From Agromyces humi (GTDB lineage Bacteria > Actinomycetota > Actinomycetes > Actinomycetales > Microbacteriaceae), in contig NZ_WJSP02000006.1 of assembly GCF_009720255.1 (NCBI RefSeq), positions 1 to 42,537 on the forward strand: a stretch of DNA of 42,537 nucleotides, read 5' to 3'. The position numbers and the translations under genes are program-made. Positions 1 through 36,810 of this stretch are shown piece by piece; position 1 is the first letter of the stretch; each line of letters opens with the position of its first letter. A model generated the notes under the pieces. It made no database searches and was not told where the DNA came from. It saw nothing but the letters and a program-made list of their open reading frames with translations.

Positions 1-197
1 CGTTCCTCGGCCTGCTGTGGCCCCGGCTCAAGCGGTTCCAAGCGGGCGCGGTGGCGGTGGCCGCCGCGGTCGTCGCCACGCTCGCGACGCCGGTGCTCAT
101 GCCCGGACTGCCGGTGCTCGTCGCCGCGATCGTCGCCGTGATCGTCGCCGTGATCGTCGGCTGGTTCGACCTGTTCTCGAGGCGGAGGGGCACATGA
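1..197 (+). CDS. azlC: AzlC family branched-chain amino acid exporter, C-terminal end (partial)
   Basis: Only the last ~64 codons are inside the window, read in the frame that ends at the TGA at 195-197. The residues are a hydrophobic run rich in Ala, Val and Ile, then a short basic tail (FSRRRGT), as expected for the last membrane helices of AzlC. The identification rests mainly on the next gene, which overlaps it by 4 bases (ATGA) and is a clear AzlD. AzlC and AzlD together form an exporter of branched-chain amino acids or their analogues in the cytoplasmic membrane. The 5' part cannot be assessed. Confidence 0.75.
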   Translation, partial: FLGLLWPRLKRFQAGAVAVAAAVVATLATPVLMPGLPVLVAAIVAVIVAVIVGWFDLFSRRRGT

Positions 198-499
198 CGA
201 CCTGGCACGTCATCCTCATCGCCGCGGCGGCGACGCTCGCCCTGAAGCTCGGCGGCTACCTCGTGCCGGCCGGCCTGCTCGAGCGTGAGCGGCCCGCCCG
301 CATCGCCGACCTCCTCACCGTCGCCCTGCTGGCGGCGCTCATCGCCGTGCAGACCCTGGGCGCCGGCCAGGCGATCGTCGTCGACGCGCGGGTGCCCGCG
401 CTCATCGTCGCGGCGGCGCTCTTCGCGCTGCGCGTGCCGTTCCTCGTCGTGGTGATCGTGGCCGCTCTCGTCGCGGCGGGCATCCGCGCGCTCACCTGA
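194..499 (+). CDS. azlD: AzlD family small subunit of branched-chain amino acid exporter
   Basis: 101 residues, the usual AzlD length, with three to four predicted membrane helices. The protein starts MTTWHVILIAAAATLALKLG and has the Gly-Tyr-Leu-Val-Pro segment typical of the family after the first helix. Its ATG overlaps the AzlC stop codon, so the two are probably translationally coupled. AzlD is the small partner of AzlC in the membrane exporter. The gene is convergent with the peptide deformylase, 10 bases away. Confidence 0.85.
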   Translation: MTTWHVILIAAAATLALKLGGYLVPAGLLERERPARIADLLTVALLAALIAVQTLGAGQAIVVDARVPALIVAAALFALRVPFLVVVIVAALVAAGIRALT

Positions 500-11224: not shown

Positions 11225-11254
11225 GTCATCGAGTGAACCGGGTCGCGCGGAATC

Positions 11255-11296: not shown

Positions 11297-11325
11297 GCCG
11301 GCGGCATCCGACTTACGCTGTGGGC

Positions 11326-14614: not shown

Positions 14615-15120
14615 GGGCACGAGCTTTCGTCATCGCGTCTGCGGCCTCGGCCGCGGTCCTCCTCACGGGTTGGCAGCTCGGCACCGCGGGCACCGATCCC
14701 GCCGCGACCACTGCGTCGAACGGCGGCACCTCGAAGACGACGGGCGGCACGGATGCCTCGTCTGGCTCGTCGAGTGGAACGACCGACGCGACGGATGCCG
14801 CCGCCACCGGCTCGACGACCCAGCAGGCCGGGTCCGGTGTCGCCGACGGCACCTACCCGGGCACGACCGTCGGCACGCGGTTCGGCGACGTGCAGGTGCA
14901 GGTCACGATCTCGGGGGGCGCCATCACCGACGTCACGCCGTTGCAGCTCACCGACCATGACGGACGCTCGGTGTCGATCAGCAACCGGGCCGCGCCGATC
15001 CTGCGGGACGAGGTGCTCCAGTCGCAATCCGCGTCGGTGTCATTCGTCAGCGGCGCCACCTACACGAGTGACGCCTACGTGCAGTCCCTCCAAGCCGCGC
15101 TCGACGCCGCGGGGTTCTGA
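14611..15120 (+). CDS. exported FMN-binding domain protein
   Basis: 169 residues from the GTG that overlaps the preceding TGA. Residues 1-25 form a signal or anchor helix (RARAFVIASAASAAVLLTGW). Residues ~28-75 are a Ser/Thr/Gly/Ala-rich linker. From ~78 the FMN-binding fold has DGTYPGTTVGTRFGDVQVQV, and near the end VSGATYTSDAY, where the SGAT threonine (about residue 150) is the expected site of covalent FMN attachment. The protein would act outside the membrane as a flavin electron carrier. The flanking ferric-reductase-like gene and ApbE flavin transferase form a coherent unit with it. Confidence 0.9.
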   Translation: MRARAFVIASAASAAVLLTGWQLGTAGTDPAATTASNGGTSKTTGGTDASSGSSSGTTDATDAAATGSTTQQAGSGVADGTYPGTTVGTRFGDVQVQVTISGGAITDVTPLQLTDHDGRSVSISNRAAPILRDEVLQSQSASVSFVSGATYTSDAYVQSLQAALDAAGF

Positions 15121-15884
15121 TGGTGCAGGCCCGTACGCTCCCGCCCAACGCGTTCGCCGCGATGGGCACGGTGGTGAGCGTGCGCGCGGGCGGAAGCGAC
15201 GTGGTGGCGGCACGCGCGACAGTGATCGCGGCATCCGTCTTCGAGCGGTGGGACCGCCGGTGCAGCCTCTACCGGCCCGACTCCGAACTGAGCCGGGTCG
15301 CCAGGGGCGAGCTCGCCCTGAGCGACGCGTGCGTGGAGCTCCGCGACGCCTACGCGCTCGCCGTGGCGTGGCGGGCGCGCACCGGCGGCGCGTTCACGCC
15401 GCATCGGGCCGACGGGGTGATCGACCTGAACGGCGTCGTGAAGGCCCTTGCCATCGCCGAGGCGGGGGAGGCGATCGGGGCGACGGGTGTCGACGAGTGG
15501 GGAGTGGACGCGGGCGGGGACGTGCTCGTGAGTGGGCTGCGGGCAGGCGGCTCGCCATGGATCGTGGGCATCGCGGACCCGGGGGACCGCGGAGCGATGG
15601 TGGCGTCGCTGCCGCTCGGAGATGCCCGACGCGCGATCGCCACCTCGGGCACGGCCGAGCGCGGCGACCACATCTGGTCGCCCACCGACGTGAGGGATGC
15701 GTCGTTCGTGCAGGTCAGCGTCGCCGCGGCCGACATCGTCACCGCCGACGTCGTCGCCACCGCGATCATCGCCGGCGGCGAGGCAACCCTCGACGAGCTG
15801 ACCGCCTGCGAGCAAGTCGACGTCCTCGCCGTGCGAAGCGACGGCACGCTCCTCGCCACGCCGCGGTGGCCGCGGGCTGCGTGA
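15120..15884 (+). CDS. apbE: FAD:protein FMN transferase (ApbE family)
   Basis: 254 residues; the ATG shares a base with the preceding stop. Family marks are the N-terminal AMGTVVSV, the loop CSLYRPDSELSRV, the DLNGVVKALAIAEA motif (usually DLGGIAKGYA), GVDAGGDVLVSG, IATSGTAERGDHIW, and the metal-site region ADIVTADVVATA. It transfers FMN from FAD to a Thr of the target, here almost certainly the preceding FMN-binding protein. ApbE enzymes of this kind act outside the membrane, but no obvious signal peptide is visible at this start. It is shorter than many ApbE proteins (~300-350), as is common for actinobacterial forms. Confidence 0.92.
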   Translation: MVQARTLPPNAFAAMGTVVSVRAGGSDVVAARATVIAASVFERWDRRCSLYRPDSELSRVARGELALSDACVELRDAYALAVAWRARTGGAFTPHRADGVIDLNGVVKALAIAEAGEAIGATGVDEWGVDAGGDVLVSGLRAGGSPWIVGIADPGDRGAMVASLPLGDARRAIATSGTAERGDHIWSPTDVRDASFVQVSVAAADIVTADVVATAIIAGGEATLDELTACEQVDVLAVRSDGTLLATPRWPRAA

Positions 15885-16982: not shown

Positions 16983-17158
16983 TGGCTGCCACCACCGACC
17001 GGCGACACGTGGCGATGATCGTGAAATCATGACCACGACGTGAAGGGTCGAGCGCAGCTCGAACATGGAGCATCTCGTCGAGTAGGGCTGACAGGGTGCA
17101 CGAGCCCGCACGATTCGAGTGCTGCCCCTGCGACCCGCCGTTGCGGGAGGATCGACGT

Positions 17159-19048
17159 ATGGCCCGCACCTTGAGGCTCGCCGTTCGATATCGGCTGGTC
17201 ACGCTGACGATCGCGATCGGCGTGATCGGCATCATCCTCGCCGTCTCGGGCGCCGCCGCGGCGGTCCCGTGGGTGTTCGGCCTCTACGCGCTCGCGATCG
17301 CTGCATGGCAGGCGGTCGGTATGGTGCGCGACATGCTGCGCGGGCATTGGGGCCTCGACATCTTGGCGGTCACCGCGATCGTCGCGACGGTGCTCGTCGG
17401 CGAGTACATCGCCGCCCTTCTCGTGGTGCTCATGCTCACGGGCGGTGAGGCGCTGGAGGACTACGCCAGCCGCCGCGCGAAGCGCGAGCTCGATGCCCTG
17501 CTGACTCGGGCACCGCAGCTGGCGCATCGCATGCAGGACGACCACATCGTCGACATCCGCGCCGACGAGGTGCGCCCGGGCGACGTCCTGCTCGTGCGTC
17601 CGAGCGAGATCGTTCCGGTCGACGCGACGCTCAGCTCCGTCGAGGCCTCGATGGACGAGTCGTCGATCACGGGCGAGAGCGTGCCTGCCGAGAAGGTGGC
17701 CGGCGACCAGGTGCTGAGCGGCTCGGTGAACGGCCAACTCGCAGTGGAGATCATCGCCTCGGCGACCGCTGCCGACAGCCAGTACCAGCAGATCGTCGCG
17801 CTCGTCGCAGAAGCCGCCGACTCGAAGGCGCCGGTCGTGCGGCTGGCCGACCGATACGCGGTGCCGTTCACCGTGTTCTCGCTCGCGCTCGCCGGCGTCG
17901 CGTGGTGGCTCTCGGGCGATCCGGTGCGGTTCGCCGAGGTGCTCGTGCTCGCGACGCCGTGCCCCCTCCTGATCGCCGCGCCCGTCGCGTTCATCGGAGG
18001 GATGAGCCGCGCCGCACGCAACGGCGTGATCGTCAAGGGCGGGGGAGTGCTCGAGCAGCTTGCTGGCGCGAAGACCGCCGTCTTCGACAAGACCGGCACG
18101 CTCACCTACGGCGCGCCGACGCTCGTCGCGATCCGCCCCGAGAACGGCTTCGGAGCCGACGAGCTGCTCGGCCTCGTGGCATCCGCCGAGCAGTACTCCT
18201 CGCACGTGCTTGCGGCCTCGATGATCGACGCCGCACGGAGTCGCGGGATTCGGCTCACCGAGGCCGACCGAGCGAGCGAGCAGGCGACGAACGGCGTGCA
18301 AGCGAGCATCGAGGGTCGCGAGGTCGTGGTCGGGAAGTTCACGTTCGTCGCTGACCGTGCACCGGATGCCGCGCGCACCACGATCGCCGCGGGCGAGCTT
18401 GCGGTGTACGTCGCCATCGACGGGCGCTTCGCCGGCTCGCTGCTCGCGAGCGATCGCGTGCGCGACAACGCGAAGGCCACGCTGGACCGACTCGACGAGC
18501 TCGGCGTACACGAGACCATGATGCTCACCGGCGATGCACAGGCGACGGCCGACCACATCGCCGCGGAGATCGGCATCACGAGCGTCCGCGCCGAGTGCCT
18601 ACCGGCCGACAAGGTGCATGAGGTGGCGGCGATTGCGAAACGCCCCGTCATCATGGTCGGTGACGGCGTGAACGATGCACCGGTGCTCGCGGCCGCCGAC
18701 GTCGGTATCGCCATGGGAGCGAAGGGCGCGACCGCCGCGAGCGAGTCGGCCGATGCGGTGATCCTCGTCGACGACATCTCCCGCACCGCGAAGGCAGTGG
18801 AGATCGGGCGTGACACGGTGCATATCGCCCTCCAGAGCATCTGGCTCGGGATCATCGTGAGCGTCGCGCTGATGATCGTCGCAGCCTTCGGCCTCATTCC
18901 CGCGACGGCCGGTGCGCTGCTCCAGGAGGTCGTCGACCTGGCGACCATCCTGGCCGCCCTCCGCGCGATCGGCGTCAGACGCGACGAGAAGGCGGCGGTT
19001 CAGTCGTCGGCGGCTGAAGCGACGTCGCACTCGCGATCGCCACGGTGA
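17159..19048 (+). CDS. P1B-type heavy-metal-translocating ATPase (TPCP motif)
   Basis: 629 residues from ATG 17159, preceded by GGGAGG. It lacks an N-terminal metal-binding CxxC domain. The actuator domain has DESSITGESVPAEK. The sixth-helix motif is LATPCPLLIAAP (Thr-Pro-Cys-Pro at about 266-269). The phosphorylated Asp is in DKTGTLTYG (Asp310), and the hinge is VGDGVNDAPVLAAADVGIAM. A TPCP motif is reported for the P1B-5 group (Ni/Fe-linked Nia-type pumps); a C-terminal haemerythrin domain found in some of those is absent. It exports or moves a transition metal across the cytoplasmic membrane; the metal is not determined. Mycobacterial dormancy regulons also include a metal-type P-ATPase (CtpF, a different subgroup). 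Confidence 0.88.
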   Translation: MARTLRLAVRYRLVTLTIAIGVIGIILAVSGAAAAVPWVFGLYALAIAAWQAVGMVRDMLRGHWGLDILAVTAIVATVLVGEYIAALLVVLMLTGGEALEDYASRRAKRELDALLTRAPQLAHRMQDDHIVDIRADEVRPGDVLLVRPSEIVPVDATLSSVEASMDESSITGESVPAEKVAGDQVLSGSVNGQLAVEIIASATAADSQYQQIVALVAEAADSKAPVVRLADRYAVPFTVFSLALAGVAWWLSGDPVRFAEVLVLATPCPLLIAAPVAFIGGMSRAARNGVIVKGGGVLEQLAGAKTAVFDKTGTLTYGAPTLVAIRPENGFGADELLGLVASAEQYSSHVLAASMIDAARSRGIRLTEADRASEQATNGVQASIEGREVVVGKFTFVADRAPDAARTTIAAGELAVYVAIDGRFAGSLLASDRVRDNAKATLDRLDELGVHETMMLTGDAQATADHIAAEIGITSVRAECLPADKVHEVAAIAKRPVIMVGDGVNDAPVLAAADVGIAMGAKGATAASESADAVILVDDISRTAKAVEIGRDTVHIALQSIWLGIIVSVALMIVAAFGLIPATAGALLQEVVDLATILAALRAIGVRRDEKAAVQSSAAEATSHSRSPR

Positions 19049-19112: not shown

Positions 19113-19730
19113 CTACTCGCCCAGCATCTGCTCCATCTGCTCGATTTCAGCGGACTGGCTCTCGACGATAGCGCGTCCGAGCGCCGCCACCTCGGGGTTC
19201 TCCGAGTTCAGGATCATCTGCGCCATCTGGATCGCACCCTCATGATGATCGATCATGCCCTCGAGGTACAGTCGGTCGAACTCGGCTGCCGTCGCACCTT
19301 CCAGTGCGGCCATCTCGCGCACGCTGAGCATCCCGCTCATGCCCACGCCCATGCCGTTGTCACCCACGGTCATGCGCCCTTCCGGCTCCTCGAGCCAGTT
19401 CTCCATCAGCTCGATCTCGGCACCCTGGGCATCGCGGATGCGCTCGGCCAATCCCCGAACGTCGGTGTCGGTCGCCTTCGCGAGCGCGAGTTCGGACATG
19501 TCGACGGCCTGCTGATGGTGAGGGATCATCATTCTGGCGAACATGATGTCCACGCGGCCGAACTCGTCCGACTCGCTCATCATGCCGCTGGCCGGTTCGG
19601 AGCCGTTCATCATCCCCGCGTGACGGTCGTCGTCGGGGCCGTCGAAGTCGATGGTGCAGCCTGAGAGGGCGACGCCGACCGTGATGACGACTGCGGCGAT
19701 CCCGGCCGCGCGGTCCTTTCCTACCGACAT
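19113..19730 (-). CDS. DUF305 family lipoprotein
   Basis: 205 residues from MSVGKDRAAGIAAVV. The lipobox VALSGC gives a mature lipoprotein with Cys near residue 25. A Met/Asp-rich segment follows (DDDRHAGMMNGSEPASGMM). Two copies of the DUF305 signature are present, ARMMIPHHQQAVDMSELAL and LEGMIDHHEGAIQMAQMI, each with a His-His pair. The fold is ferritin-like, and the Met/His content suggests metal binding, often copper, but this is not demonstrated. It lies 17 bases after the single-domain Usp, so the two are probably one transcript. Confidence 0.9.
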   Translation of the reverse strand: MSVGKDRAAGIAAVVITVGVALSGCTIDFDGPDDDRHAGMMNGSEPASGMMSESDEFGRVDIMFARMMIPHHQQAVDMSELALAKATDTDVRGLAERIRDAQGAEIELMENWLEEPEGRMTVGDNGMGVGMSGMLSVREMAALEGATAAEFDRLYLEGMIDHHEGAIQMAQMILNSENPEVAALGRAIVESQSAEIEQMEQMLGE

Positions 19731-19747
19731 GATCGTTCCCTGCAAGG

Positions 19748-20224
19748 TCAGCCGTCGTGCACGACCAGGACCGGGCAGTGGGCATGTGCGCTGCACGCGG
19801 AGCTGACCGATCCGAGGAGCAGGCCAGTGAAACCGCCATGCCCGCGCGTGCCCACGGCCAGCATCATCGCGTCCTTCGACTGTTCGATGAGGACGTCAGC
19901 CGGTCGACCTCGTTGGATGGCTGCGGTCACCCAGTCGGGGATGACAGTGCCGAAGGCAGCTTGCATCGCTCCTTCGACGACGCGCGTCGCGTCTTCCTCT
20001 GGAGTGACGTCCGACTCCGGGTAGTAGTAATTGCCATAGAGCAGCGTCGGGTAGTTCCACACGGCGAGCGCGTGGACGGCGACGCCGAGCCTGCCGCCCA
20101 GCTCGGCGGCGAACCGGAGTGCGGCGACGGATTGAGCGGATCCATCGACGCCGACCACGATCTCGCCGCCGGTCCCCTTCGGCTTCGCGGCGGGCGCCTC
20201 TCCCGGCGTGGTGGGTGTTGACAT
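19748..20224 (-). CDS. universal stress protein (single domain)
   Basis: 158 residues from MSTPTTPGEAPAAKPKGTG. One Usp domain has IVVGVDGSAQSVAALRFA and a complete nucleotide motif, GTRGHGGFTGLLLGSVSS, ending CPVLVVHDG. A flexible N-terminal ~20 residues precede the fold. No ribosome site is visible before the ATG. A DosR-type box lies 34 bases upstream, which would put the predicted transcript start at or very near the ATG. It precedes the DUF305 gene. Confidence 0.92.
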   Translation of the reverse strand: MSTPTTPGEAPAAKPKGTGGEIVVGVDGSAQSVAALRFAAELGGRLGVAVHALAVWNYPTLLYGNYYYPESDVTPEEDATRVVEGAMQAAFGTVIPDWVTAAIQRGRPADVLIEQSKDAMMLAVGTRGHGGFTGLLLGSVSSACSAHAHCPVLVVHDG

Positions 20225-20258: not shown

Positions 20259-20327
20259 GGGTCGAAGGTCACATCGCCCCCGCGGCATCGCTGGGACATA
20301 CGGCCCATGGCGCGGGCCAAGGGTCGT
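20259..20327. promoter_or_regulatory. cluster of DosR-type boxes upstream of Usp
   Basis: GGGTCGAAGGTCAC at 20259-20272 is the best match and ends 34 bases before the Usp start. GGGACATACGGCCC at 20293-20306 follows 34 bases further upstream, and GGGCCAAGGGTCGT at 20314-20327 is a weaker third. Pairs of boxes at such spacings are usual for DosR-controlled promoters. Confidence 0.65.
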
Positions 20328-20377: not shown

Positions 20378-21052
20378 TCAGCTGAACAACGTGCGTGCCG
20401 AGCGGGCGGTGAGTGCCGCGACGGTGGCCGCCATCAAGAGACCGGCGACCGTGTAGATCCCAAGCAGGACGGCGATCTCGGTCGAGTCGTCGACGATCGG
20501 CGATGGCGCGAACGTCCAGAGGATGGCGATCGCCCAGGCCCCCATGTTCACGGGGATCCATCGCTTCGAATGCGTCCGCTGCCGAATGACCAGCCATTGC
20601 AGCACTGGGATGCTCGCCAGCAAGGCTGTCGCACCCGCGACGACCAGGACCATGCCGGGTGGCATGGCGAGTGGAACGCCCAGCGTGCTCGGAAGCAAGC
20701 CGATCGCCCACGCGATCATCGCCCCGAGTGCCGTTGCGGCGATCCACTTCCGGGGAGTCGGGCGGCGTGCGCCCATTCCGGCGAGCTGCGCCGCCCCGAG
20801 CATCGCCCCCTCGACCGCGCCCGCGCCGACGAGTACGAGATACCGCCATGGGTCTTCCAACGCAGAGCCGACCACGGTGAGTGCGACGGCAGCGACGAAT
20901 GTGAACCCGAGTGCCTCGCCCGATGTGACCGCGACGATCCAGCGGCCGATGGAGAAGGGAGGGTCTCGCGGCGCGTTCGTGGGGTGCGAGGGCGGCGACG
21001 ACGCTGCGCTCCGCGGCTCCTCAGCTGTCGGCACGAGGCTGCGCGTCGGCAC
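20378..21052 (-). CDS. multi-pass membrane protein, unknown function
   Basis: 224 residues from a GTG at 21052; a GTG at 21034 is an alternative that shortens the overlap with the upstream gene. About six hydrophobic helices are visible, beginning ALGFTFVAAVALTVVGSAL and ending LLGIYTVAGLLMAATVAALT. A Gly/Ala-rich pattern (GAVEGAMLGAAQLAGMGARR) sits in the second helix pair. I do not recognise the family. It overlaps the end of the PPOX-fold gene by 32 bases or less and is probably co-transcribed with it. Confidence 0.75.
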   Translation of the reverse strand: MPTRSLVPTAEEPRSAASSPPSHPTNAPRDPPFSIGRWIVAVTSGEALGFTFVAAVALTVVGSALEDPWRYLVLVGAGAVEGAMLGAAQLAGMGARRPTPRKWIAATALGAMIAWAIGLLPSTLGVPLAMPPGMVLVVAGATALLASIPVLQWLVIRQRTHSKRWIPVNMGAWAIAILWTFAPSPIVDDSTEIAVLLGIYTVAGLLMAATVAALTARSARTLFS

Positions 21053-21455
21053 GGGCGAATGTCCGGCCGTGAATCTCGGTGGGTGTGATGCGGACCCAGC
21101 GATCCTTCTCCTCGGGCGCCCATGGGGTGATGCCGAGTCGTTCCGCGGCGTACACCTCGCCCTGGCGGTCGAACTCTTCCGCGAGCCCTTTCACGACGAC
21201 GCTGAAGGCGTCGGTCTCCGTGAAGGCGTCCACCTCGAACGCGACACGGTCGTTGATCGTGAGCTCGAGCAGCTTGGTACCGGCTGCCGTCCGGAAGACG
21301 ACGGTCCCATGGTCGACCCCGTGATTGACCGGGAAGATGTCGATTTCTCCGGCGGCTGTCGCCGCGACGCGTCCGTATGGCGCGGCTTCGATCCGCTCCC
21401 AGCATTCTTCGGCCGAGAGCTCACGGGTGGCCCGAGTGTCATCGTTGGGTTCCAT
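21021..21455 (-). CDS. PPOX-fold (pyridoxamine 5'-phosphate oxidase-like) flavin protein
   Basis: 144 residues from MEPNDDTRATRELSAEECWE. The split-barrel pattern is present: CWERIEAAPYGRVAATAAG, IDIFPVNHGVDHGTVVFRT, GTKLLELTINDRVAFEVDAF, SVVVKGLAEEF and the C-terminal WVRITPTEIHGRTF. Such proteins bind FMN, F420 or haem and reduce small substrates; which applies here is not clear. A PPOX-like protein (Rv3129) is also part of the mycobacterial dormancy locus. A perfect-core DosR-type box lies 34 bases upstream of the start. Confidence 0.88.
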   Translation of the reverse strand: MEPNDDTRATRELSAEECWERIEAAPYGRVAATAAGEIDIFPVNHGVDHGTVVFRTAAGTKLLELTINDRVAFEVDAFTETDAFSVVVKGLAEEFDRQGEVYAAERLGITPWAPEEKDRWVRITPTEIHGRTFARADAQPRADS

Positions 21456-21469: not shown

Positions 21470-22000
21470 TCAATCCGCGGGTCGTTCGCGGGTCGAAGGT
21501 CCCGCCGACGACACGACCCGGGTGTCGCCGTCGACGCCGTCGGCTTGGGGCGGGCTCACGAACGTGGCACGTCGATGTGTCGCCCGCGCGGTCGGGAGAA
21601 GGCCGAGTTGGAGCAGTACGAGGCCGAGTTCTACCGACCCAGCCGTGAAGTACACGGCCTGCAGGAAGCTGAACGGTATGACCATCATCTGCACGAAGAT
21701 CCAGATGAGCGCGGCATAGCCGGCCGCCGCTGCAGCGAGCAACGCCGACGATCGCCGACGCAGGAGCAGGACGAACGCGATCGCGTTGACGCCTCCGAGT
21801 ACCAACGTGAGGAGGAGGCCGGGCACGAGGTAGGACGAGAATGGCGAGCCCTCGAGATACTCCTCGGGCGGGGTGATCACCAACGAGAGATCTGGGATGA
21901 TCGCACCCAGCGTGAGCGCGAGACCGCCGGCGAACGCCGTCACCGCGACGAACGCTTCGACGGCGAGGAGGGAGGTGCGAGTTGCCTGGTGCGGGTTCAT
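21470..22000 (-). CDS. multi-pass membrane protein, unknown function
   Basis: 176 residues from MNPHQATRTSLLAVEAFVAV; an upstream in-frame start at 22051 would run through the regulatory box and is rejected. Four hydrophobic helices are visible: VAVTAFAGGLALTLG, YLVPGLLLTLVLGGVNAIAF, ALLAAAAAGYAALIWIFVQM and a last one around VELGLVLLQLGLL. A charged tail follows (PPQADGVDGDTRVV). No family is recognised. It has the best DosR-type palindrome of the window 35 bases upstream. The PPOX gene follows it by 14 bases. Confidence 0.75.
   Translation of the reverse strand: MNPHQATRTSLLAVEAFVAVTAFAGGLALTLGAIIPDLSLVITPPEEYLEGSPFSSYLVPGLLLTLVLGGVNAIAFVLLLRRRSSALLAAAAAGYAALIWIFVQMMVIPFSFLQAVYFTAGSVELGLVLLQLGLLPTARATHRRATFVSPPQADGVDGDTRVVSSAGPSTRERPAD
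21490..21503. promoter_or_regulatory. DosR-type box upstream of PPOX gene
   Basis: GGGTCGAAGGTCCC, 34 bases before the PPOX start codon and inside the 3' end of the preceding coding sequence. One mismatch to a perfect palindrome. Its conservation inside coding sequence supports function. Confidence 0.7.
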
Positions 22001-22035: not shown

Positions 22036-22049
22036 GGGACGAAGGTCCC
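22036..22049. promoter_or_regulatory. DosR-type box, perfect-arm palindrome
   Basis: GGGACGAAGGTCCC, with perfect five-base arms GGGAC/GTCCC, 35 bases before the membrane-protein start at 22000. Read in the gene direction it is GGGACCTTCGTCCC, one transition away from the core of the mycobacterial box GGGACTTTNGTCCC. Confidence 0.8.
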
Positions 22050-22151: not shown

Positions 22152-22961
22152 TCAGGCGTCGGTCGAGTGCGGCACGATGACGACTGGGCCGCCGGCGTTC
22201 ATGATCAGGTCGTTGTTGGTCCGCCCGAGGGGGCGGTAGCCGCGAGCACCAGGCACCGTCGGGCGGCCGCTGACGGTGAGCATCGCGCGCCTCGACGCAC
22301 TCGCGAGCGCCTCTCCCGCCGACGTCGTGGTGTGCCGGAGTTCGATGTCCACGGGTGCGTCGTCAGCATCGGCGGCATCGAGGAGCGATCGCAGCGCGCG
22401 GTCATCGAACGGCGTGTCCCGGTCGGACCGGAGCACCACGACCGGCTCCGCGAGCCGAGCTGCCTCACGCACGGCGAAGCGCACCGCCTCGATCCAGCCC
22501 GGCGCAGTGCCTGCGCCGACGATCACGCCGCGGCGTCCGTTCGTCGACGATGACGGGACGATCGCGATCGGCACGGGGGCGGTGGCCGCGAGCTGCAGTC
22601 CGCGGGCGCCCAGCGCATGTCCGTGGAAGGTTCCAGACTTGTGCGAGCCGATCGCGACCGACTCGTATTCCGATGCGGAACCCGCGAGCTCGAGCATCGG
22701 GGCGCCGACCTCGACGGCAGCGGACACCGGCACGTCACCACCTGCGATTCCCCGTGCGAACTCCAGCTCACGTGCAGCGAGCTGTTCCGCGTCGCCGCGG
22801 AGTTCCCTCAGATCCCGATCGCTGATCGTGCCCCATTCGTCGTCGACGACGGTGAGCAGGGTGATGCCGGCATCGAGGGCGGCGGCTCGTTCGACCGTCC
22901 ACGCGATCGCTGCGCGGCTCGCCACCGAACCGTCGATGCCGACGAGGATCGTCCTGTTCAT
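22152..22961 (-). CDS. tandem universal stress protein with degenerate ATP motifs
   Basis: 269 residues from MNRTILVGIDGSVASRAAIA. The first Usp domain carries GSHKSGTFHGHALGARG in place of the usual G-2x-G-9x-G(S/T) loop, so nucleotide binding is uncertain. The second domain (about 145-265) has GAGTAPGWIEAVRFAVREAA and ends GGPVVIVPHSTDA, with only weak Usp resemblance. It is divergent from the sensor kinase, with a DosR-type box in the gap. It differs from the two 278-residue tandem Usp proteins in this window and is not a recent duplicate of them. Confidence 0.85.
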   Translation of the reverse strand: MNRTILVGIDGSVASRAAIAWTVERAAALDAGITLLTVVDDEWGTISDRDLRELRGDAEQLAARELEFARGIAGGDVPVSAAVEVGAPMLELAGSASEYESVAIGSHKSGTFHGHALGARGLQLAATAPVPIAIVPSSSTNGRRGVIVGAGTAPGWIEAVRFAVREAARLAEPVVVLRSDRDTPFDDRALRSLLDAADADDAPVDIELRHTTTSAGEALASASRRAMLTVSGRPTVPGARGYRPLGRTNNDLIMNAGGPVVIVPHSTDA

Positions 22962-23054: not shown

Positions 23055-23068
23055 GGGCCGTTGGTCCC
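23055..23068. promoter_or_regulatory. DosR-type box between Usp and the sensor kinase
   Basis: GGGCCGTTGGTCCC, with arms GGGCC/GTCCC. It lies 93 bases before the Usp start (22961) and 65 bases before the kinase start (23134). If functional it would give autoregulation of the two-component system, as seen for DevR in mycobacteria. Confidence 0.6.
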
Positions 23069-23133
23069 GTGGCCCGCCTGTCGGCGGATTGTGCCCGATG
23101 GTAGCCTGCGGACAAGACGCTCCGGAGGTGCCC

Positions 23134-24876
23134 GTGCCCGGTCAGCTGCCATCAGGATCCGTCCCCGGCATGCCGGAGTCAGATCTCGACCGTGCGCTCC
23201 ACGAGTTGGTGGATCGCGCCGGTGAGGTGATGCGCGCGCAGGACCGGCTCAGGGCACTGCTGCGCGCAACGCAGGCGGTCGTGCAACAACTGGAACTCAG
23301 GGTCGTCCTGGAGCGGATCGTCGAGGCCGCGGTCGAGCTCGTCGATGCCCGGTACGGGGCGCTCGGCGTCATCGCCGAGCACGGAGGCCTGGAGGCGTTC
23401 ATCCACGTCGGGATGCCGCCCGAGCAGGTGGCGGCGATCGGCCACCTTCCCGAGGGTCGTGGGGTCCTCGGCGCGCTGATCGATGACCCGCATCCGATCC
23501 GACTCGAGCACATCACCGACGATCCCCGTTCGGTCGGCTTTCCCGCGGGACATCCACCGATGGACGGATTCCTCGGGGTGCCGGTGCGCGTCCGTGACGA
23601 CGTGTACGGCAACCTGTACCTGACGGAGCCTCGGTCTGGGGAGTTCACCCGAGACGACGAGGAACTCGTCGCGGCGCTCGCGGGGACGGCGGGGTTTGCG
23701 ATCGCGAATGCACGCCTGTTCGACGAGACGCTGCTGCGCCAGCAGTGGACGGCGTCGTCGGCCCAGATCGCCTCCGCGCTGCTCGACTCGGACAGCTCGA
23801 CGGCGATCTCGCTGCTCGCCGATGAACTCGCCGCTCGGTCGACGGCTGACCGGATCTGCATTCTTCTTCCCGGCATCGAACCCCTCACGTTGCGTGTCGT
23901 CGAGGCACGGGGTCTCGGTGCCGACCGGATGTCGGGAGCCGTCGTCTCGGCCATGGACACCGTTGCATCGCTGTCAGTGGAGACGGGTGCGTCGCGGGCT
24001 GTTCCCGGCGCACGCGACTCCGACTCGTCGGACGCCCTTGCGATCACGGTCGGGCGCGACCCGGGCCCGGTGATGGCCGTGCCACTCAAGCACGGGAACT
24101 CGGTGTGGGCCGTCATCGTGGTCTCACGTGAGCCGGGCAGACCGCCGTTCGGCCCGGCCGATCTCGACATCGCCGACGACCTTGCCGGCCGGGTCGGCTT
24201 GGCGATCGAGCTGGCCGAGGCACGCGAACAGCGCCAGCGTGCCGAGCGGACCGAGGACCGGGCCCGGATCGCACGTGACCTGCACGACCACGTCATCCAA
24301 CAGCTCTTCGGCGTGGGACTCGAACTCCAGGCCTTGGCGGGAGAGTCCTCGACGCCGGCCGCAGAGCGGCTTCTCGGCGCAACCGAGACGATCGATGACG
24401 CCATTGCGCAGATCCGCACGATCATCTTCGCCATGCGACCGCGTGGGACGGAGGACTCGCTACGCCACCGCATCCTCGACGTGGTCGCCGAGGCCTCCTC
24501 CGGTCTCGCCAATCCGGTTGCCGTGGGCTTCGCCGGGCCCGTCGACCTCGTCCTCGGCGGACCCATCGGAGGCGACATCACGGCGGTAGCTCGAGAGTTG
24601 CTGTCGAACGCGGTACGGCACTCGGAGGCAGAGCAGATCCGCGTCTCCGTCACCGTCGACGCGACGTCGGCGCGCGTCCTCGTCGAGGACGATGGAGTCG
24701 GCATACCCGAGCAGGGGCGCCGAAGCGGGCTCGACAACCTCCGGGCACGCGCCGAACGTCGGGGCGGCAACCTGCGGATCGACTCGGGGCCGGGCGCCAC
24801 CACGATCGAGTGGACGGTGCCGGCGCCGGGCACAGAATCGAATGCCGATCACGACGCGATCGGAGGGCCCCGGTGA
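23134..24876 (+). CDS. DevS/DosS-like GAF-GAF sensor histidine kinase
   Basis: 580 residues from GTG 23134, chosen for GGAGG five bases upstream; GTG 23128 and ATG 23098 are alternatives. This length matches mycobacterial DevS (578). GAF domain 1 (~55-195) has ATQAVVQQLELRVVLERIVE, IGHLPEGRGVLGALIDDPHP and FPAGHPPMDGFLGVPVRVRD. The His of HPPM (about residue 140) aligns with the proximal haem ligand His149 of DosS. A second GAF domain spans ~205-360. The HisKA_3 phospho-acceptor is in RIARDLHDHVIQQLFGVG (about His383). The ATPase domain has ARELLSNAVRHS, VEDDGVGIPEQG and SGLDNLRARAERRGG. It should sense O2, NO, CO or redox state through haem and phosphorylate the next gene's product. It overlaps that gene by four bases. 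Confidence 0.92.
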   Translation: MPGQLPSGSVPGMPESDLDRALHELVDRAGEVMRAQDRLRALLRATQAVVQQLELRVVLERIVEAAVELVDARYGALGVIAEHGGLEAFIHVGMPPEQVAAIGHLPEGRGVLGALIDDPHPIRLEHITDDPRSVGFPAGHPPMDGFLGVPVRVRDDVYGNLYLTEPRSGEFTRDDEELVAALAGTAGFAIANARLFDETLLRQQWTASSAQIASALLDSDSSTAISLLADELAARSTADRICILLPGIEPLTLRVVEARGLGADRMSGAVVSAMDTVASLSVETGASRAVPGARDSDSSDALAITVGRDPGPVMAVPLKHGNSVWAVIVVSREPGRPPFGPADLDIADDLAGRVGLAIELAEAREQRQRAERTEDRARIARDLHDHVIQQLFGVGLELQALAGESSTPAAERLLGATETIDDAIAQIRTIIFAMRPRGTEDSLRHRILDVVAEASSGLANPVAVGFAGPVDLVLGGPIGGDITAVARELLSNAVRHSEAEQIRVSVTVDATSARVLVEDDGVGIPEQGRRSGLDNLRARAERRGGNLRIDSGPGATTIEWTVPAPGTESNADHDAIGGPR

Positions 24877-25511
24877 CACGCATCTTCCTCGTCGACGATC
24901 ACGAGATCGTCCGACGCGGCATCGCGGAACTGCTCGATCGCGAACCCGACCTCGAGGTCGTGGGGGAGGCCGGAGATGTGACGCACGCCCTCGCTCGCAT
25001 CGCAGCGACGCTTCCCGACGTCGTGGTACTCGACGTGCGGCTACCGGATGGCGATGGCATCGAACTGTGCAGAGAGGTGCGATCGCGACATCCCGCGGTG
25101 GGCTGCCTCATCCTCACCGCCTACGATGACGACGAGGCCACCCTGTCCGCCGTCCTCGCCGGAGCGTCGGGCTACGTGTTGAAGAACGTGTCGGGGTCGC
25201 GCCTCGTCGAGGACATCCGCGCTGTAGCCAGCGGCCGATCCCTGCTCCACACTGCAGCCACTCGTCACGTCGCCGAGCGGGCCGCAGCCGGAGACCGTGA
25301 TGACCCGAGATTCGGGTCGTTGCAGTTGCGCGAGCGACAGGTGCTGGCACTCATCGCCGAGGGACTCACCAACCGCCAGATCGGCGAGAAGCTCGGGCTT
25401 GCCGAGAAGACCGTGAAGAACTATGTCTCGGGGTTGCTGCGCAAACTCGGTCTCGAACGTCGCACCCAAGCCGCCGTCTTCGAGTTGGAGCGCCGCGACC
25501 CACCGGCATGA
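24873..25511 (+). CDS. DevR/DosR-like response regulator (NarL/LuxR family)
   Basis: 212 residues from the GTG overlapping the kinase stop. The receiver domain has the acidic pair Asp8-Asp9 (LVDDHEIVRRG), the phosphorylated Asp54 (VVVLDVRLPDGDG) and Lys104 (GYVLKNVSG). The LuxR-type helix-turn-helix has LQLRERQVLALIAEGLTNRQ and the recognition helix LAEKTVKNYVS. Lys179, Lys182 and Asn183, which contact DNA in mycobacterial DevR, fall at the same numbers here. The ending LERRTQAAVFE also follows DevR. This conservation fits the DosR-like boxes found across the cluster. It should activate the surrounding genes when phosphorylated. Convergent with hsp20. Confidence 0.93.
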   Translation: MTRIFLVDDHEIVRRGIAELLDREPDLEVVGEAGDVTHALARIAATLPDVVVLDVRLPDGDGIELCREVRSRHPAVGCLILTAYDDDEATLSAVLAGASGYVLKNVSGSRLVEDIRAVASGRSLLHTAATRHVAERAAAGDRDDPRFGSLQLRERQVLALIAEGLTNRQIGEKLGLAEKTVKNYVSGLLRKLGLERRTQAAVFELERRDPPA

Positions 25512-25548: not shown

Positions 25549-25986
25549 TCAGTCGCCCGTGCCAGGGGTGATCTCCACCTTGCGGGGAGAGGGCAGCTCC
25601 TTGAACGGCACGGTGACACGCAGCACGCCGTGATTGAAGGTCGCCGTCGCTGCGCCTTCGTCGGCCTGCTCGGGCAGGATGATGCGGCGGTAGTAGCTCG
25701 AGCTGCTCTCGCGTACGACGTACTTCTTCGTCGCGTCCTCATCTGCCTCGCGTTCCTGCCGCTGGGCACGAATGACGAGCGCGCCGCCATCGACGTCGAC
25801 GTCGACGTCGTCCTCGGTGAAGCCGGGGAGGTGGGCCTCGATCGTGAGTTTCGAGTCGTCCTCGGTGTAGATGTCGGTGGTCGGCGCAGCGTGGCGTCCT
25901 GTCGCCGTGGACATCTCCGAGAGCAGTCGGTCTCGTAGCGCGGCGAGATCGCTGAACGGGTCGAACCGTGCGAGTGACGTGGCCAT
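25549..25986 (-). CDS. Hsp20/alpha-crystallin small heat-shock protein (HspX-like)
   Basis: 145 residues from MATSLARFDPFSDLAALRDR, with AAGGAG eight bases upstream; the longer start at 26013 is rejected. The alpha-crystallin domain (~40-135) has APTTDIYTEDDSKLTIEAHL, PGFTEDDVDVDVDGGALVI and the closing GVLRVTVPFKELP. The length is close to mycobacterial HspX (144), the classic DosR-induced chaperone. It holds unfolding proteins in the cytoplasm without ATP. A DosR-type box lies 53 bases upstream, shared with the divergent Usp. Confidence 0.94.
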   Translation of the reverse strand: MATSLARFDPFSDLAALRDRLLSEMSTATGRHAAPTTDIYTEDDSKLTIEAHLPGFTEDDVDVDVDGGALVIRAQRQEREADEDATKKYVVRESSSSYYRRIILPEQADEGAATATFNHGVLRVTVPFKELPSPRKVEITPGTGD

Positions 25987-26039: not shown

Positions 26040-26053
26040 GGGCCGAAGGTCCC
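26040..26053. promoter_or_regulatory. DosR-type box upstream of hsp20
   Basis: GGGCCGAAGGTCCC, 53 bases before the hsp20 start, which itself has a normal ribosome site and so a leader. It lies in the 149-base divergent gap with the tandem Usp. Confidence 0.7.
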
Positions 26054-26135: not shown

Positions 26136-26972
26136 ATGTTCACCAAGGTCGTCGCAGGTTGGGACGGGTCGCCCGAGTCGGAGGCGGCAATCGAATGGGC
26201 CGCCGAGCACTGCGGCGAGTCCCCGCTGATATTGGTTCATGCCATCGGGGGCAGGTCCACCGGGAGTGAGTACCTCCAGGCGACCGGTGAACGATCAGCG
26301 GAGCGGATGAGAATGATGGACGTTGCGGAACGCCTTCGCGCGACGCATCCGGAGCTCCGCGTGGAGACGGAGACGGTGCACGGCTCCGCGCTCGAAGCGC
26401 TCGAGGAACGGCTCGGCGCCGACACGCTGGTCGTAGTCGGCGGGCCGAGTCACCGTCGAACGACCAGGTGGACGCTCGGATCGCGCCTGGCCGGCCGTCG
26501 CAACGGCGGGCCTGTCGCGGTCATCCCGGCGATGTCGATGTCGGAACGGCGGACGGCGGTGGTCGCCGGGGTCGACGGCTCGCAGGCGTCGCTGATGGCG
26601 GTGGACGTCGCCGCCGAGGAAGCCGCACGCCTCGGCGCACCGCTGGAGATCGTGCATGCCTGGCAGGTGCCCGTGCAGTGGGACAACGCCCTTCTGGACT
26701 ACGGGTCCGACGTCGACACCCTCGAGGAGATCCACCGGGATCTGCTCGACGAGGCGGTCGAGTTCGCGCGGGCGTCGGGGGCGCGGCCGACGGGGCGACT
26801 GGAACGGGGCGTGCCGTCGGAGGTGCTTCGCGACATCGGCCGCACGTCGGTGCTGCTCGTCGTCGCAAGCCATGGTGCGGGCGGCTTCACCCGGTTCTTC
26901 CTCGGGTCGGTCAGCCACGACCTCTTGGTGGAGCCGCCCGCACCAGTGCTCATCGTCCAGCCATCCGCGTGA
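26136..26972 (+). CDS. tandem universal stress protein
   Basis: 278 residues from MFTKVVAGWDGSPESEAAIE; no ribosome site is visible directly upstream. Two Usp domains are present. The first has a degenerate nucleotide loop (GGPSHRRTTRWTLGSRLAG). The second has GVDGSQASLMAVDVAAEEA and an intact loop, SHGAGGFTRFFLGSVSHD, ending APVLIVQPSA. It has the same length and domain logic as the protein at 16015-16851, including the paired MEEMHR/LEEIHR helix start, so the two are paralogues. It is divergent from hsp20 and probably regulated from the same gap. Confidence 0.92.
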   Translation: MFTKVVAGWDGSPESEAAIEWAAEHCGESPLILVHAIGGRSTGSEYLQATGERSAERMRMMDVAERLRATHPELRVETETVHGSALEALEERLGADTLVVVGGPSHRRTTRWTLGSRLAGRRNGGPVAVIPAMSMSERRTAVVAGVDGSQASLMAVDVAAEEAARLGAPLEIVHAWQVPVQWDNALLDYGSDVDTLEEIHRDLLDEAVEFARASGARPTGRLERGVPSEVLRDIGRTSVLLVVASHGAGGFTRFFLGSVSHDLLVEPPAPVLIVQPSA

Positions 26973-29484: not shown

Positions 29485-30021
29485 TCAACGGGCGGGCTGT
29501 CGGGTGGTCACAGCCTGTCCGAGCGAACGCCCCCACTCGCGGGCCCGGTCGAGCTCGCCATCCACCAGTGCGTTCTTCGTGGTCACGAGGAAGCACGCCG
29601 ACTCGGCAACCGGTCGTGAGTGAAGCTGGTGGCGCATGCGTCGTTCGATGCCGGCGGACGCATCGCCCGCGAAGATCCGCGGGATGTCCACCCGCGTGCC
29701 GAATGCCGCCCAGGCGGTGGGCGCGGTCGAGAGGGACTCGAGCCACTCCCGCACTCCGGGCTTGAACGCGTCGGGCTCGAGGACGAGATGCTGTTCCGGA
29801 TCAGCGGCCCATTTCGCCGCATCCTCCCTCGACGACGGCTGAGGCAGCGTGTGCGCATGGGTCGGCGCACCGACCACCACGAGTTCGTGATCCGCCAGTT
29901 CGGCACCGGCCGACACCGGCTTCACCTGAACATCCACGAAGTCCGAGAGGCCGTCGCCGATCGCTCGGGCGATCTCGCGGGTGTTCCCGAACATCGATTC
30001 GTAGAGCACGATGGCTGTCAT
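29485..30021 (-). CDS. flavodoxin-like protein
   Basis: 178 residues from MTAIVLYESMFGNTREIARA, with GGGAG six bases upstream. The phosphate-binding loop ESMFGNT of flavodoxins is intact, followed by DHELVVVGAPTHAHTLPQPS. The second FMN loop region is WAAFGTRVDIPR. It would carry electrons through FMN or act as a small flavin reductase. It differs from the second flavodoxin at 33868. A DosR-type box lies 48 bases upstream. It is probably the first gene of the transcript running to 27034. Confidence 0.88.
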   Translation of the reverse strand: MTAIVLYESMFGNTREIARAIGDGLSDFVDVQVKPVSAGAELADHELVVVGAPTHAHTLPQPSSREDAAKWAADPEQHLVLEPDAFKPGVREWLESLSTAPTAWAAFGTRVDIPRIFAGDASAGIERRMRHQLHSRPVAESACFLVTTKNALVDGELDRAREWGRSLGQAVTTRQPAR

Positions 30022-30069
30022 CACGTCTCCCTTCCAGAGCCAGCCTCACGTGCCTGCGCCGGCGACGAT

Positions 30070-30083
30070 GGGGCGAAGGTCCC
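30070..30083. promoter_or_regulatory. DosR-type box upstream of flavodoxin
   Basis: GGGGCGAAGGTCCC, 48 bases before the flavodoxin start. One mismatch in the left arm. Confidence 0.65.
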
Positions 30084-30118: not shown

Positions 30119-31396
30119 TCAGCCCGGAGCAGTGTCGACCAGTCGCGCGAGCTCGTCCTGCATGGCAACAGCGAACTCGAACCCCCGCACGTGCTGCGTG
30201 TCGAAGTGAACCGCGCAACGAAGACGACCGGCGTACGAGATCGCCGCAACGCCGAGTCGAACGTTGGCGGCCAGGACCGCGACGGGCCAGATGGCGACGA
30301 TGGGTGCACCGGCGAGCCGCAATGGCGCCGCCGGCCCCGGCACGTTGGTCACGAAGCCGGCGACGACGTGCTGCCGGTGGGCGATACGATTCATGATGCG
30401 CGCTCCGAGCGGGCCCCGCATCAGTTCGAGCGTGCCCTGTTCTCGGGCGCGCGACTTCTCGATGTGCGTCTGAGCGCTGATGATTCGGAGGCGGTCACCG
30501 GATCCGGCCGCGGCGAGCGGGAGGCGTACCAGCATGACCCCGACCTGGTTGCTCGCCGGGCCGTTCCTCCGCAACGCGACCGGTGACGAAACCGGCAGCG
30601 CTGCCGGGACGGCCTCGCCGGCGGCCCGGAGCGCCGCTTCGAAGCCCACTGCGACGGAGGCGAGCAGGGCATCGTTGACGGTCGCAGCCACGGACGCCGC
30701 GCGGCGTTCGAGCGCACCCAGATCAGCATCGACGAAGGCCACACCTCGGTGCTGACTTCGCTCGCCGAGCAGCATCGTGGTGGAGACGCCTCGGCCTCCG
30801 ATCGTGGTCAACACTCGTTGCAGTCCGAACCACACCTTGTGAGGCATCCGCCGCGCATGCCGTTCCGGCCCGGGTCCCCGGCGGTGTCCGGTTGGTTCGG
30901 TGGCAGCCATCGCGGATGGGGTCATCGGTTCCTCGGGGTCGAAGAGCTCGTGCACCAACGCCACGGCTGACGTCCCGTCGGCGATCGCGTGGTGGATCCG
31001 CAGGATGAAGGCGGCGTCGTACCCGTTCTCGCCCGGAACGAGCAGCAGCTCCCAGAGCGGACGGTGACCGTCGAGCGGAACGGTCATCAACTCGCCACAT
31101 CGTCGTTCGAGCGTCATCGGCACGGTCTCCGGATCCACGAGCCGCACGTGGTGCGCCAAGTCGGGCAGAGCGTCGGCCCACGCATGCCGCCGGCCGACGC
31201 GCACCGCCACGTGGCGGAGCGCGGGCAGTCGTCGGATCCGCGTGGACAGGGCGGAGCGAAGCGTCGCGAGGTCGACGCCTCCGTCGTCCCCGACGAATCC
31301 ACCAGGCGAGAGCGTGCCGGCCACGAGGAACACGTTGACCTGACCGGGACGATCGAGCACCAGGTTGGCCTCGTCGGCCGGTGCAAGTCGTTGCAT
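30119..31396 (-). CDS. WS/DGAT-type acyltransferase (triacylglycerol synthase-like)
   Basis: 425 residues from MQRLAPADEANLVLDRPGQV; GTG 31408 is an alternative. The frame stays open far upstream only because of GC content. The active-site motif HHAIADG is at about residues 135-141, preceded by PLWELLLVPG. The C-terminal marks include NDALLASVAVGF, NQVGVMLVRLPL and VTNVPGPAAPLRLAG. The enzyme esterifies diacylglycerol or a fatty alcohol with acyl-CoA to make storage lipid. In mycobacteria, Tgs1 (Rv3130c) is a DosR-induced enzyme of this family encoded next to DevR. Two DosR-type boxes lie in the divergent gap with the TM2 gene. Confidence 0.92.
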   Translation of the reverse strand: MQRLAPADEANLVLDRPGQVNVFLVAGTLSPGGFVGDDGGVDLATLRSALSTRIRRLPALRHVAVRVGRRHAWADALPDLAHHVRLVDPETVPMTLERRCGELMTVPLDGHRPLWELLLVPGENGYDAAFILRIHHAIADGTSAVALVHELFDPEEPMTPSAMAATEPTGHRRGPGPERHARRMPHKVWFGLQRVLTTIGGRGVSTTMLLGERSQHRGVAFVDADLGALERRAASVAATVNDALLASVAVGFEAALRAAGEAVPAALPVSSPVALRRNGPASNQVGVMLVRLPLAAAGSGDRLRIISAQTHIEKSRAREQGTLELMRGPLGARIMNRIAHRQHVVAGFVTNVPGPAAPLRLAGAPIVAIWPVAVLAANVRLGVAAISYAGRLRCAVHFDTQHVRGFEFAVAMQDELARLVDTAPG

Positions 31397-31479: not shown

Positions 31480-31493
31480 GGGACTTTGGGCCC
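31480..31493. promoter_or_regulatory. DosR-type box, mycobacterial-like, upstream of TM2 gene
   Basis: GGGACTTTGGGCCC matches the mycobacterial consensus GGGACTTTNGTCCC at all but one defined position. It is 50 bases before the TM2 start and 38 bases from its neighbour box, start to start. Confidence 0.7.
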
Positions 31494-33867: not shown

Positions 33868-34404
33868 TCAGCCGCGAGCAATCGCGCCGAGGGCGTCGGC
33901 GATCGAGTCCGCCCAGGCGTCGATCGCGTCCCACTCCCGGAAGTCGCCCTCCGGCAGGATGTCGCGGATGGCCGGCATCCACGCGACGATACGATCCCCG
34001 CCGCGGATCTTGTCATGGTGGTATGCGCCGCGGAAGACCTGAGCACCCCTCGGGTGGAGGAGGTCCGCGTAGTCAGCGAACTGCTTGGGCTCCGCCCCCT
34101 TCAGGACGTCGTTCCCGTCCTTGTCGACCGTCTCCGTGCCGAGCGGACCGCTGCTGAAGAGCCAAGTCGGGCGAGCCGAGAGCACGCCGGCGTTGCGCTC
34201 GACGAACTTCCGGGCATCCTTCCGCCAGTTGAACGCGTACGTCGCTGAGCCGATGACATAGGCGTCGTAGCCGGATGGATCGCGCACGTCGGCGCAGCGC
34301 GCGACGTCGATCTCGAGCCCGCGCTTCTGCAGTGTCTCGCCGATGCGCCGGGCGATGCCCTCGGTCGCGCCGTACTTGCTCGCGTAGGCGATGAGCACCT
34401 TCAT
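33868..34404 (-). CDS. flavodoxin-domain protein (HemG-like)
   Basis: 178 residues from MKVLIAYASKYGATEGIARR, the typical flavodoxin start with phosphate loop ASKYGATEG. Further marks are YDAYVIGSATYAFNWRKDAR and a second loop, WLFSSGPLGTET. The C-terminal part (GDRIVAWMPAIRDILPEGD) resembles menaquinone-dependent protoporphyrinogen oxidase-like (HemG) flavodoxins, though catalytic identity is not proven. It would transfer electrons via FMN. A DosR-type box lies 70 bases upstream. Together with the UbiB-like gene it may form one transcript. Confidence 0.88.
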   Translation of the reverse strand: MKVLIAYASKYGATEGIARRIGETLQKRGLEIDVARCADVRDPSGYDAYVIGSATYAFNWRKDARKFVERNAGVLSARPTWLFSSGPLGTETVDKDGNDVLKGAEPKQFADYADLLHPRGAQVFRGAYHHDKIRGGDRIVAWMPAIRDILPEGDFREWDAIDAWADSIADALGAIARG

Positions 34405-34474: not shown

Positions 34475-34488
34475 GTGACGAAGGTCCC
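34475..34488. promoter_or_regulatory. DosR-type box upstream of second flavodoxin
   Basis: GTGACGAAGGTCCC, 70 bases before the flavodoxin start at 34404. One arm mismatch. Confidence 0.6.
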
Positions 34489-34608: not shown

Positions 34609-34622
34609 GGGCCCAAGGTCCC
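34609..34622. promoter_or_regulatory. DosR-type box upstream of the terminal dehydrogenase
   Basis: GGGCCCAAGGTCCC, 70 bases before the dehydrogenase start at 34693. The same 70-base spacing occurs for the box and flavodoxin on the other side of this divergent gap. Confidence 0.65.
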
Positions 34623-36745: not shown

Positions 36746-36810
36746 GTCTTCTCCCTGTCGGCGCATTCATCGAGTGTGGCAGACCTGCATCCGAAGCCGA
36801 CTTGCCAATC

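Follow-up and report, generated by a model that had tools for sequence, protein, structure and literature searches.

We analysed a window of 42,537 nucleotides of Agromyces humi (contig NZ_WJSP02000006.1, positions 1 to 42,537), and all coordinates given here are those of this window. The gene under study encodes a sensor kinase, which is followed by a response regulator and preceded by a divergent universal stress protein (USP). The core features are listed below.

23134 to 24876, forward strand: DosT/DosS-type sensor kinase gene with GAF-A, GAF-B, HisKA_3 and HATPase domains (ORF, Pfam and phmmer)
23290 to 23730, forward strand: GAF-A, the predicted haem domain, in which H140 corresponds to DosS His149, Y162 to DosS Tyr171 and G78 to DosS Glu87 (alignment and predicted model)
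24873 to 25511, forward strand: DosR/DevR-type response regulator (match to structure 3c3w, and Pfam)
22152 to 22961, reverse strand: USP gene, divergent from the kinase (PF00582)

The kinase reading frame is uninterrupted from a GTG at 23134 to the stop codon at 24874-24876 and encodes 580 amino acids. A GGAGGT lies upstream of this GTG at 23124-23129. An ATG at 23170 could also serve as the start; among the 80 named relatives the first matched query residue ranges from 2 to 38. Pfam matches to GAF_2/GAF, GAF_3, HisKA_3 and HATPase_c give the domain order GAF-A, GAF-B, HisKA_3, HATPase, which is the order of the haem-GAF kinases DosS, DosT and OsdK, and the predicted elements agree with it. 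H384 of HisKA_3 is invariant in the alignment of relatives and is the likely phospho-acceptor. The ATPase domain matches the DosS/DosT structures 3zxo and 3zxq (phmmer against solved structures), while the kinase scores far under the cut-offs of the NCBIfam kinase models. A search of the host's own genome returned two other matches only, at 31% and 30% identity, both limited to the kinase half. As no second match spanning the GAF domains was found there, a lone sensor would carry the whole job. PMC4082495 describes dosT as likewise missing from M. smegmatis.

The regulator begins with a GTG that overlaps the kinase stop by 4 bases. It is DosR-like across nearly its whole length (3c3w, E 1.7e-71) and has the receiver and GerE domains (Pfam) expected of a DosR/DevR member. 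Its recognition helix, AEKTVKNYVS, is identical to that of DosR, in which K179, K182 and N183 are presumably the residues that read the box.

Predicted Dos boxes and the genes behind them

The DosR/DevR box consensus is given as GGGHCNWWNGNCCCB in the Table S6 legend of PMC2947987. We scanned the window with this and related patterns and located the following sites and genes.

23055 to 23068: Dos box GGGCCGTTGGTCCC between the divergent USP and kinase genes, 79 bp before the kinase start (published consensus; kept in congeners)
26040 to 26053: Dos box between divergent Hsp20 and USP genes (published consensus)
25549 to 25986, reverse strand: Hsp20 small heat-shock protein (PF00011; chosen start)
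26136 to 26972, forward strand: tandem USP (PF00582; chosen start)
22036 to 22049: Dos box, 36 bp before a gene without a Pfam match (21470-22000, reverse strand; published consensus)
21490 to 21503: Dos box that overlaps the 3' end of the upstream gene and precedes, by 35 bp, a pyridoxamine-phosphate-oxidase-like gene (21021-21455, reverse strand; PF12900; published consensus)
20293 to 20306: Dos-like box, 69 bp before a USP gene (19748-20224, reverse strand; outside the published-consensus matches)
30070 to 30083: Dos-like box that precedes a flavodoxin-like gene (29485-30024, reverse strand) by 46 bp (outside the published-consensus matches)
31480 to 31493: Dos box in front of a WS/DGAT acyltransferase gene (30119-31396, reverse strand), 84 bp from its likely start at 31396 (published consensus)
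34609 to 34622: Dos box that precedes an alcohol-dehydrogenase-like gene (34693-35748, forward strand) by 84 bp (published consensus)
34475 to 34488: weaker Dos-like site that departs from the pattern at one fixed base and precedes a flavodoxin-like gene (33868-34404, reverse strand) by 71 bp (pattern scan)

The nine sites, strict and weaker together, are separated by 35-96 bp from the closest of the start codons we chose, where the distance for the box at 31480 was counted after the WS/DGAT start had been moved to 31396. All but one of them are intergenic, and the exception overlaps its upstream gene at the end. Behind them stand three USPs, Hsp20, the pyridoxamine-phosphate-oxidase-like gene, two flavodoxin-like genes, the WS/DGAT gene, the dehydrogenase, one gene without a family, and the kinase operon. 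Predicted boxes in front of USP, Hsp20 and kinase-regulator genes are what membership of a DosR regulon would lead one to expect. Rv3130c, which is on the M. tuberculosis hypoxia list, we take to be a WS/DGAT enzyme. The same list holds hspX and the regulator operon (PMC4082495, Table 1).

In the window the published consensus has 6 sites, which amount to 11 matches when the strands are counted separately; 0.34 matches were expected. Genome-wide it occurs at 15 sites, 6 of them inside the window, which makes up 1% of the genome (p 3.8e-9). A second pattern, GGGMCNNNNGKCCC, combines the M. tuberculosis box with the OsdR box described in PMC5069765. Its count in the window is 6, where 0.66 would be expected, and of the 37 sites that it has in the whole genome 6 fall inside the window (p 1.5e-6). 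The patterns GGGNCNNTNGNCCC and GGGACCTTNGNCNC were derived from the window itself and are circular, so the claim for the boxes rests on the literature-derived patterns. A loose scan with GGGACTNNNGTCCC, allowing at most 3 mismatches, returned 128 matches, fewer than the 208 in shuffles. Over the whole genome the reversed-pattern control exceeded the box both in the GGGNCNNTNGNCCC scan (83 vs 50) and, per strand, with GGGMCNNNNGKCCC (86 vs 37), and the published consensus about equalled its reversed control (25 strand hits vs 28). The box signal is its clustering inside the window and not its genome-wide total. One site of the GGGNCNNTNGNCCC pattern in the genome scan lies on C623 near a GAF gene.

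We then counted boxes at kinase loci in other genomes. Of the 21 congeners that have a near-whole kinase, 16 carry an exact box no more than 300 bp before it, against 0 of 21 for the reversed control. With at most one mismatch a box is found in all 21, a count for which the reversed control exists for exact matches only. Three partial matches (L182-L184) were excluded from the count of boxes before the kinase. Beyond the genus, a strict box directly before the kinase is rare (4 of 29, 3 of 29 and 7 of 80 loci, with 1 for the reversed control in each set). Across whole loci, boxes outnumber the reversed control by 126 to 31 in the 80 named loci (1.0 Mb) and by 12 to 4 in the 29 family loci. In the 60 kb around the kinase in four kinase-bearing congeners (G741, G745, G751 and G719), strict boxes are hardly in excess (10 vs 7 in the control), and 180 kb of three kinase-less congeners hold 1 strict box vs 2 in the control. 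The predicted box before the kinase is well supported; for the putative wider regulon, support comes mostly from the window.

Two further gene groups of the window are without a match to the published consensus. One is a P-type ATPase gene (17096-19048) beside a DUF305 gene (19113-19796), with no such box in front; for M. tuberculosis, ctpF is on the hypoxia list in PMC4082495. The other, in the variable block described below, is a ferric-reductase-like protein near an ApbE-family protein (12707-15884).

The GAF-A domain and its predicted haem site

The preliminary description held that the first GAF domain retains the haem-ligand histidine of DosS, and the two peptides quoted for it, FPAGHPPMDGFLGVPVRVRD and IGHLPEGRGVLG, are present verbatim in the kinase reading frame. 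GAF-A comprises residues 54-199. Its best match among solved structures (phmmer) is DosT (2vzw, E 5.4e-46), and DosS GAF-A and its mutants rank next (E 4.2e-43 to 5e-42; 2w3d, E 5e-42). Identity is ~60% to the haem domain of DosT and ~53% to that of DosS, and in sequence the domain is nearer to DosT. The alignment of the three has one gap, a residue long, which lies C-terminal of the Tyr171 position, and none through the positions of His149 or Tyr171. H140 falls on the proximal ligand position, His149 in DosS and His147 in DosT, by residue identity and by place, and the distal position, Tyr171 in DosS and 169 in DosT, is Y162. The retention of the ligand histidine is therefore borne out by the sequence alignment, and its place fits the predicted model. 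In the account given in PMC4082495, DosS His149 is the proximal haem ligand and Tyr171 contacts the bound gas, with ligand discrimination lost when it is changed to Phe.

The preliminary description had also named modelling against the DosS/DosT GAF-A structures as a check. An AlphaFold2 model of GAF-A, built from 53 sequences, reached a pLDDT of 91, to be read with the caveat that AlphaFold may have learned the DosS/DosT structures. Nine DosS/DosT entries matched it with Z scores of 26.0-27.1 and R.M.S.D. values of 0.9-1.5 Å, and the next fold scored Z 18.2; the fold match, of ~1 Å, also draws on Foldseek. The structure alignment places model residues 2..146 on DosS 63..208, given as ranges only, and is consistent with model residue 88, which is H140, lying over DosS 149. 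We infer the direction of the H140 side chain from this fit to the DosS/DosT structures. Sequence and model together predict that GAF-A binds haem.

Next, we examined how well the two residues are kept. Matches with readable loci, our own excluded, numbered 29 in the phylum search, 29 in the family search and 24 in the genus search. All 58 relatives that were collected by similarity of the whole protein, without a motif filter, have the equivalents of both His149 and Tyr171. These are 27 of 27 recovered rows from the phylum search, 29 of 29 from the family search, and L039 and L042, which were missed by our ORF rule and whose His and Tyr were read from a separate alignment. Among the named relatives the His is kept in 77 of 79 (window and L044 excluded), a count that is biased because the set was found partly via the pattern GFPx[HGN]HP[PA]M. 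L044 is a gap in this alignment, with a stop after 36 residues, and was omitted from the tree and motif counts. The ligand His is missing from two kinase relatives, L062 (Microbacterium pullorum) and L119 (Streptomyces albidus), in which the Tyr and most of GAF-A are retained, so the domain can persist without the His. On sequence grounds they are candidates for natural haem-less forms, and they offer ready-made comparisons for the contribution of haem. The idea that HPPM is an ordinary GAF feature was rejected, as all 8 other GAF matches of the host genome lack it; it is also missing from the kinase's own GAF-B. In this control, absence was read from the sequence for L010, which the GAF-A profile did not match, and for L007 and L008, whose alignments covered only parts without the His.

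The positions that separate DosS from DosT bear on what such a sensor would detect. PMC4082495 proposes that Glu87 of DosS narrows a channel and gives Gly at the equivalent position of DosT. In the window kinase the redox-type pair of DosS, Glu87 linked to His89, is replaced by Gly and Ile, and DosT differs from it at position 89 in having Arg. Six further positions said in the same source to distinguish DosS from DosT are mixed: R118 and N169 are DosT-like, V108 is DosS-like, and 89, 90 and 97 are like neither. A DosS-like redox sensor, with haem behind a narrowed channel, auto-oxidation on O2 and a ferric/ferrous state that sets kinase activity, would have the same domain, His and Tyr, and the Val at position 108 suits it. 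Against it, the proposed channel narrower is Gly here and in 55 of the 56 recovered motif-free relatives (Glu in 1), and PMC4082495 treats the redox reading of DosS itself as disputed; we consider it unlikely. Among the 80 lettered rows of the named-relative set, window included, the position is Gly in 79 and Ala in 1. Since Gly stands at the Glu87 position, a DosT-like stable-oxy gas (hypoxia) sensor is the likelier of the two. The preliminary description had left both open, as a haem-based O2/NO/CO or redox sensor. Its gas-sensor half has gained from the kept His and Tyr, the ~1 Å fold match, the DosR-like partner and the Dos boxes, with haem binding predicted, and its redox half now appears less likely.

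The main objection to any haem sensor is the missing ferrochelatase. Its profile, PF00762, found no match in the host draft genome, although it does detect the enzyme in 8 of the 14 genomes used as controls, among them Corynebacterium glutamicum. The host assembly is 96.3% complete in 812 contigs, so the absence may be an assembly gap. If GAF-A held no haem, it would bind another small molecule or nothing, and the HPPM segment would be kept for folding or signalling. The missing ferrochelatase match and the persistence of the domain in L062 and L119 would fit such a sensor, but His and Tyr are kept together in all 58 motif-free relatives, HPPM is confined to GAF-A among the host GAF domains compared, and a Dos-type partner and boxes are in place, which makes it very unlikely. 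For the related genus Leucobacter, PMC6868719 describes a haem-requiring strain and a Leucobacter without several haem genes. A literature search joining Microbacteriaceae, heme biosynthesis and auxotroph, with most subscription journals outside it, returned nothing. The most improbable reading is a haem-supply or NO/CO detector in place of a hypoxia switch, in which GAF-A loading in a haem-importing host reports haem supply as much as O2; the missing ferrochelatase match and haem-dependent Leucobacter strains (PMC6868719) point that way, but the genome is an 812-contig draft, the search covered one haem-pathway family, and the surrounding genes (USP, Hsp20) match hypoxia regulons.

Proposed function and closest known systems

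The gene product is very likely a haem-based gas-sensor kinase like DosT and OsdK, with a DosR-type partner and a hypoxia/dormancy regulon. The architecture, both haem residues, the partner, and the boxes with their conservation in congeners are read from the sequence itself. Haem binding and the on/off logic, as well as phosphotransfer, binding to DNA and the physiology, we infer by analogy with DosS, DosT and OsdKR as follows. GAF-A would bind haem through H140, and Y162 would read the distal ligand on it. Bound O2 would hold the kinase off; when O2 leaves, or NO or CO binds, H384 would be autophosphorylated. The phosphate would pass to the adjacent DosR-type regulator, which would bind boxes of the plan GGGNC(N)4GNCCC and switch on the kinase operon, the USPs, Hsp20, the WS/DGAT enzyme, the flavodoxins and the dehydrogenase as a hypoxia/dormancy regulon.

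DosT of M. tuberculosis, which acts on DosR, is like the window kinase in its GAF-A, in the His and Tyr positions and in the Gly at the Glu87 position, and the DosT/DosR system also shares the GAF-GAF-HisKA_3-HATPase order, the DosR-type partner, the GGG-CCC box and the USP/Hsp20 genes. Unlike DosT, the window kinase is encoded beside its regulator with a box in front, whereas dosT lies outside the devR-devS operon and is described in PMC4082495 as not induced by hypoxia. DosS/DevS shares His149/Tyr171 and is encoded with DosR beside a USP gene with a box before the operon; it differs in Glu87 and His89, and in the window the kinase gene precedes the regulator gene. OsdK-OsdR of Streptomyces coelicolor (SCO0203/0204) is, in PMC5069765, a non-mycobacterial Dos-type pair amid USP and stress genes, and its box, AGGGCCGATCGGCCCT, has the same plan as the window boxes. 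In contrast to OsdKR, the core of the window boxes is mostly GGGACCTTCGNCCC, the family is another one, and the cluster lies in a block missing from congeners. PolS-PolR of Microlunatus phosphovorus is also a DevS/DevR-like pair outside Mycobacterium but is described in PMC6754071 as controlling phosphate and polyphosphate genes.

The preliminary description had stressed a sensor outside Mycobacterium. This is correct as to location but not as a novelty, since OsdKR (PMC5069765) and PolSR (PMC6754071) came earlier. What we describe is a Dos/Osd-type system in Microbacteriaceae, of a kind already known from OsdKR and PolSR. A search for literature joining Microbacteriaceae and DosR, with most subscription journals outside its reach, found none. 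The locus is a compact, self-contained example, in another actinobacterial family, of the best-studied mycobacterial hypoxia-dormancy switch, and the logic from sensor to promoter could be tested here without a pathogen.

A variable block and the distribution of the system

The whole system lies in a block that some congeners lack.

3522 to 36054: 32.5-kb block holding the system, directly after a tRNA-Met gene (3446-3520; congener alignments)

In congener G630, window positions 1-3521, ending right after the tRNA-Met gene, and 36075-42527 adjoin, 150 bp apart, so that ~32.5 kb with the whole system is extra in the window. The same two flanks are separated by 2.25 kb in G710, and only the right flank was found within the 60 kb read in G705. 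All three are without a kinase match. Identity to G710 is ~83% for the left flank and 95% for the right. Foreign contamination as the source of the contig was rejected, given this right-flank identity and the adjoining flanks in G630. The block is thus present or absent directly after a tRNA gene, as in a tRNA island. Among the 38 block ORF products scanned with Pfam, which are part of the block's ORFs, there was no integrase or transposase, and no direct repeat of the tRNA end of at least 20 nt (14-nt seed) was found at the far block edge. Loss in relatives, and not gain here, is an alternative.

Kinase matches, our own genome included, were found in 64 of 396 phylum genomes (E <= 1e-60), 99 of 299 family genomes (E <= 1e-40) and 24 of 60 genus genomes (E <= 1e-60), where G700 matched by the kinase half only. 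With some relatives having it and others lacking it, the system seems to be an accessory trait. Most of the best named relatives belong to the Microbacteriaceae, for example Subtercola, Microbacterium, Rathayibacter, Cryobacterium and Leifsonia, and in the kinase tree the window falls in a set of 14 rows, 11 of them Microbacteriaceae, with a support of 99. In G741, G745, G751 and G719 kinase identity runs from 83 to 66%, and the USP-kinase-regulator core stands amid other arrangements of the same gene set; the 60 kb read in these congeners held no alignment of at least 150 bases to the window flanks. In the genome of Microbacterium sp. Marseille-Q6648 (locus L060), a right-flank gene is 82% identical (10 of the 80 named loci were compared).

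At E <= 1e-40 the kinase also matches 26 plasmid records, which include megabase replicons. Frondihabitans, also of the Microbacteriaceae, has a 213-kb plasmid (L197, NZ_CP014514.1) that carries, at 8915-12750, USP, kinase and regulator in the window's order and then another USP, with Dos boxes at 4 sites and IS5 and IS1380 transposase genes within 10 kb. We tentatively suggest, as a possibility about which we remain rather doubtful, that the Dos hypoxia/dormancy response of Microbacteriaceae is a portable module of sensor, regulator, boxes and targets, which would sit together in variable chromosomal blocks or on plasmids and be acquired or lost together. A species might then obtain its entire oxygen-controlled dormancy programme in a single event, perhaps even where the host does not synthesise haem itself. 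If the module is truly mobile, a dormancy regulon would be an exchangeable trait and not a fixed property of a lineage.

The block also holds two MmyB-like (MLTR_LBD) regulators, at 5584-6519 and 11275-12207, one beside an aldo/keto reductase gene and the other beside an MFS transporter gene.
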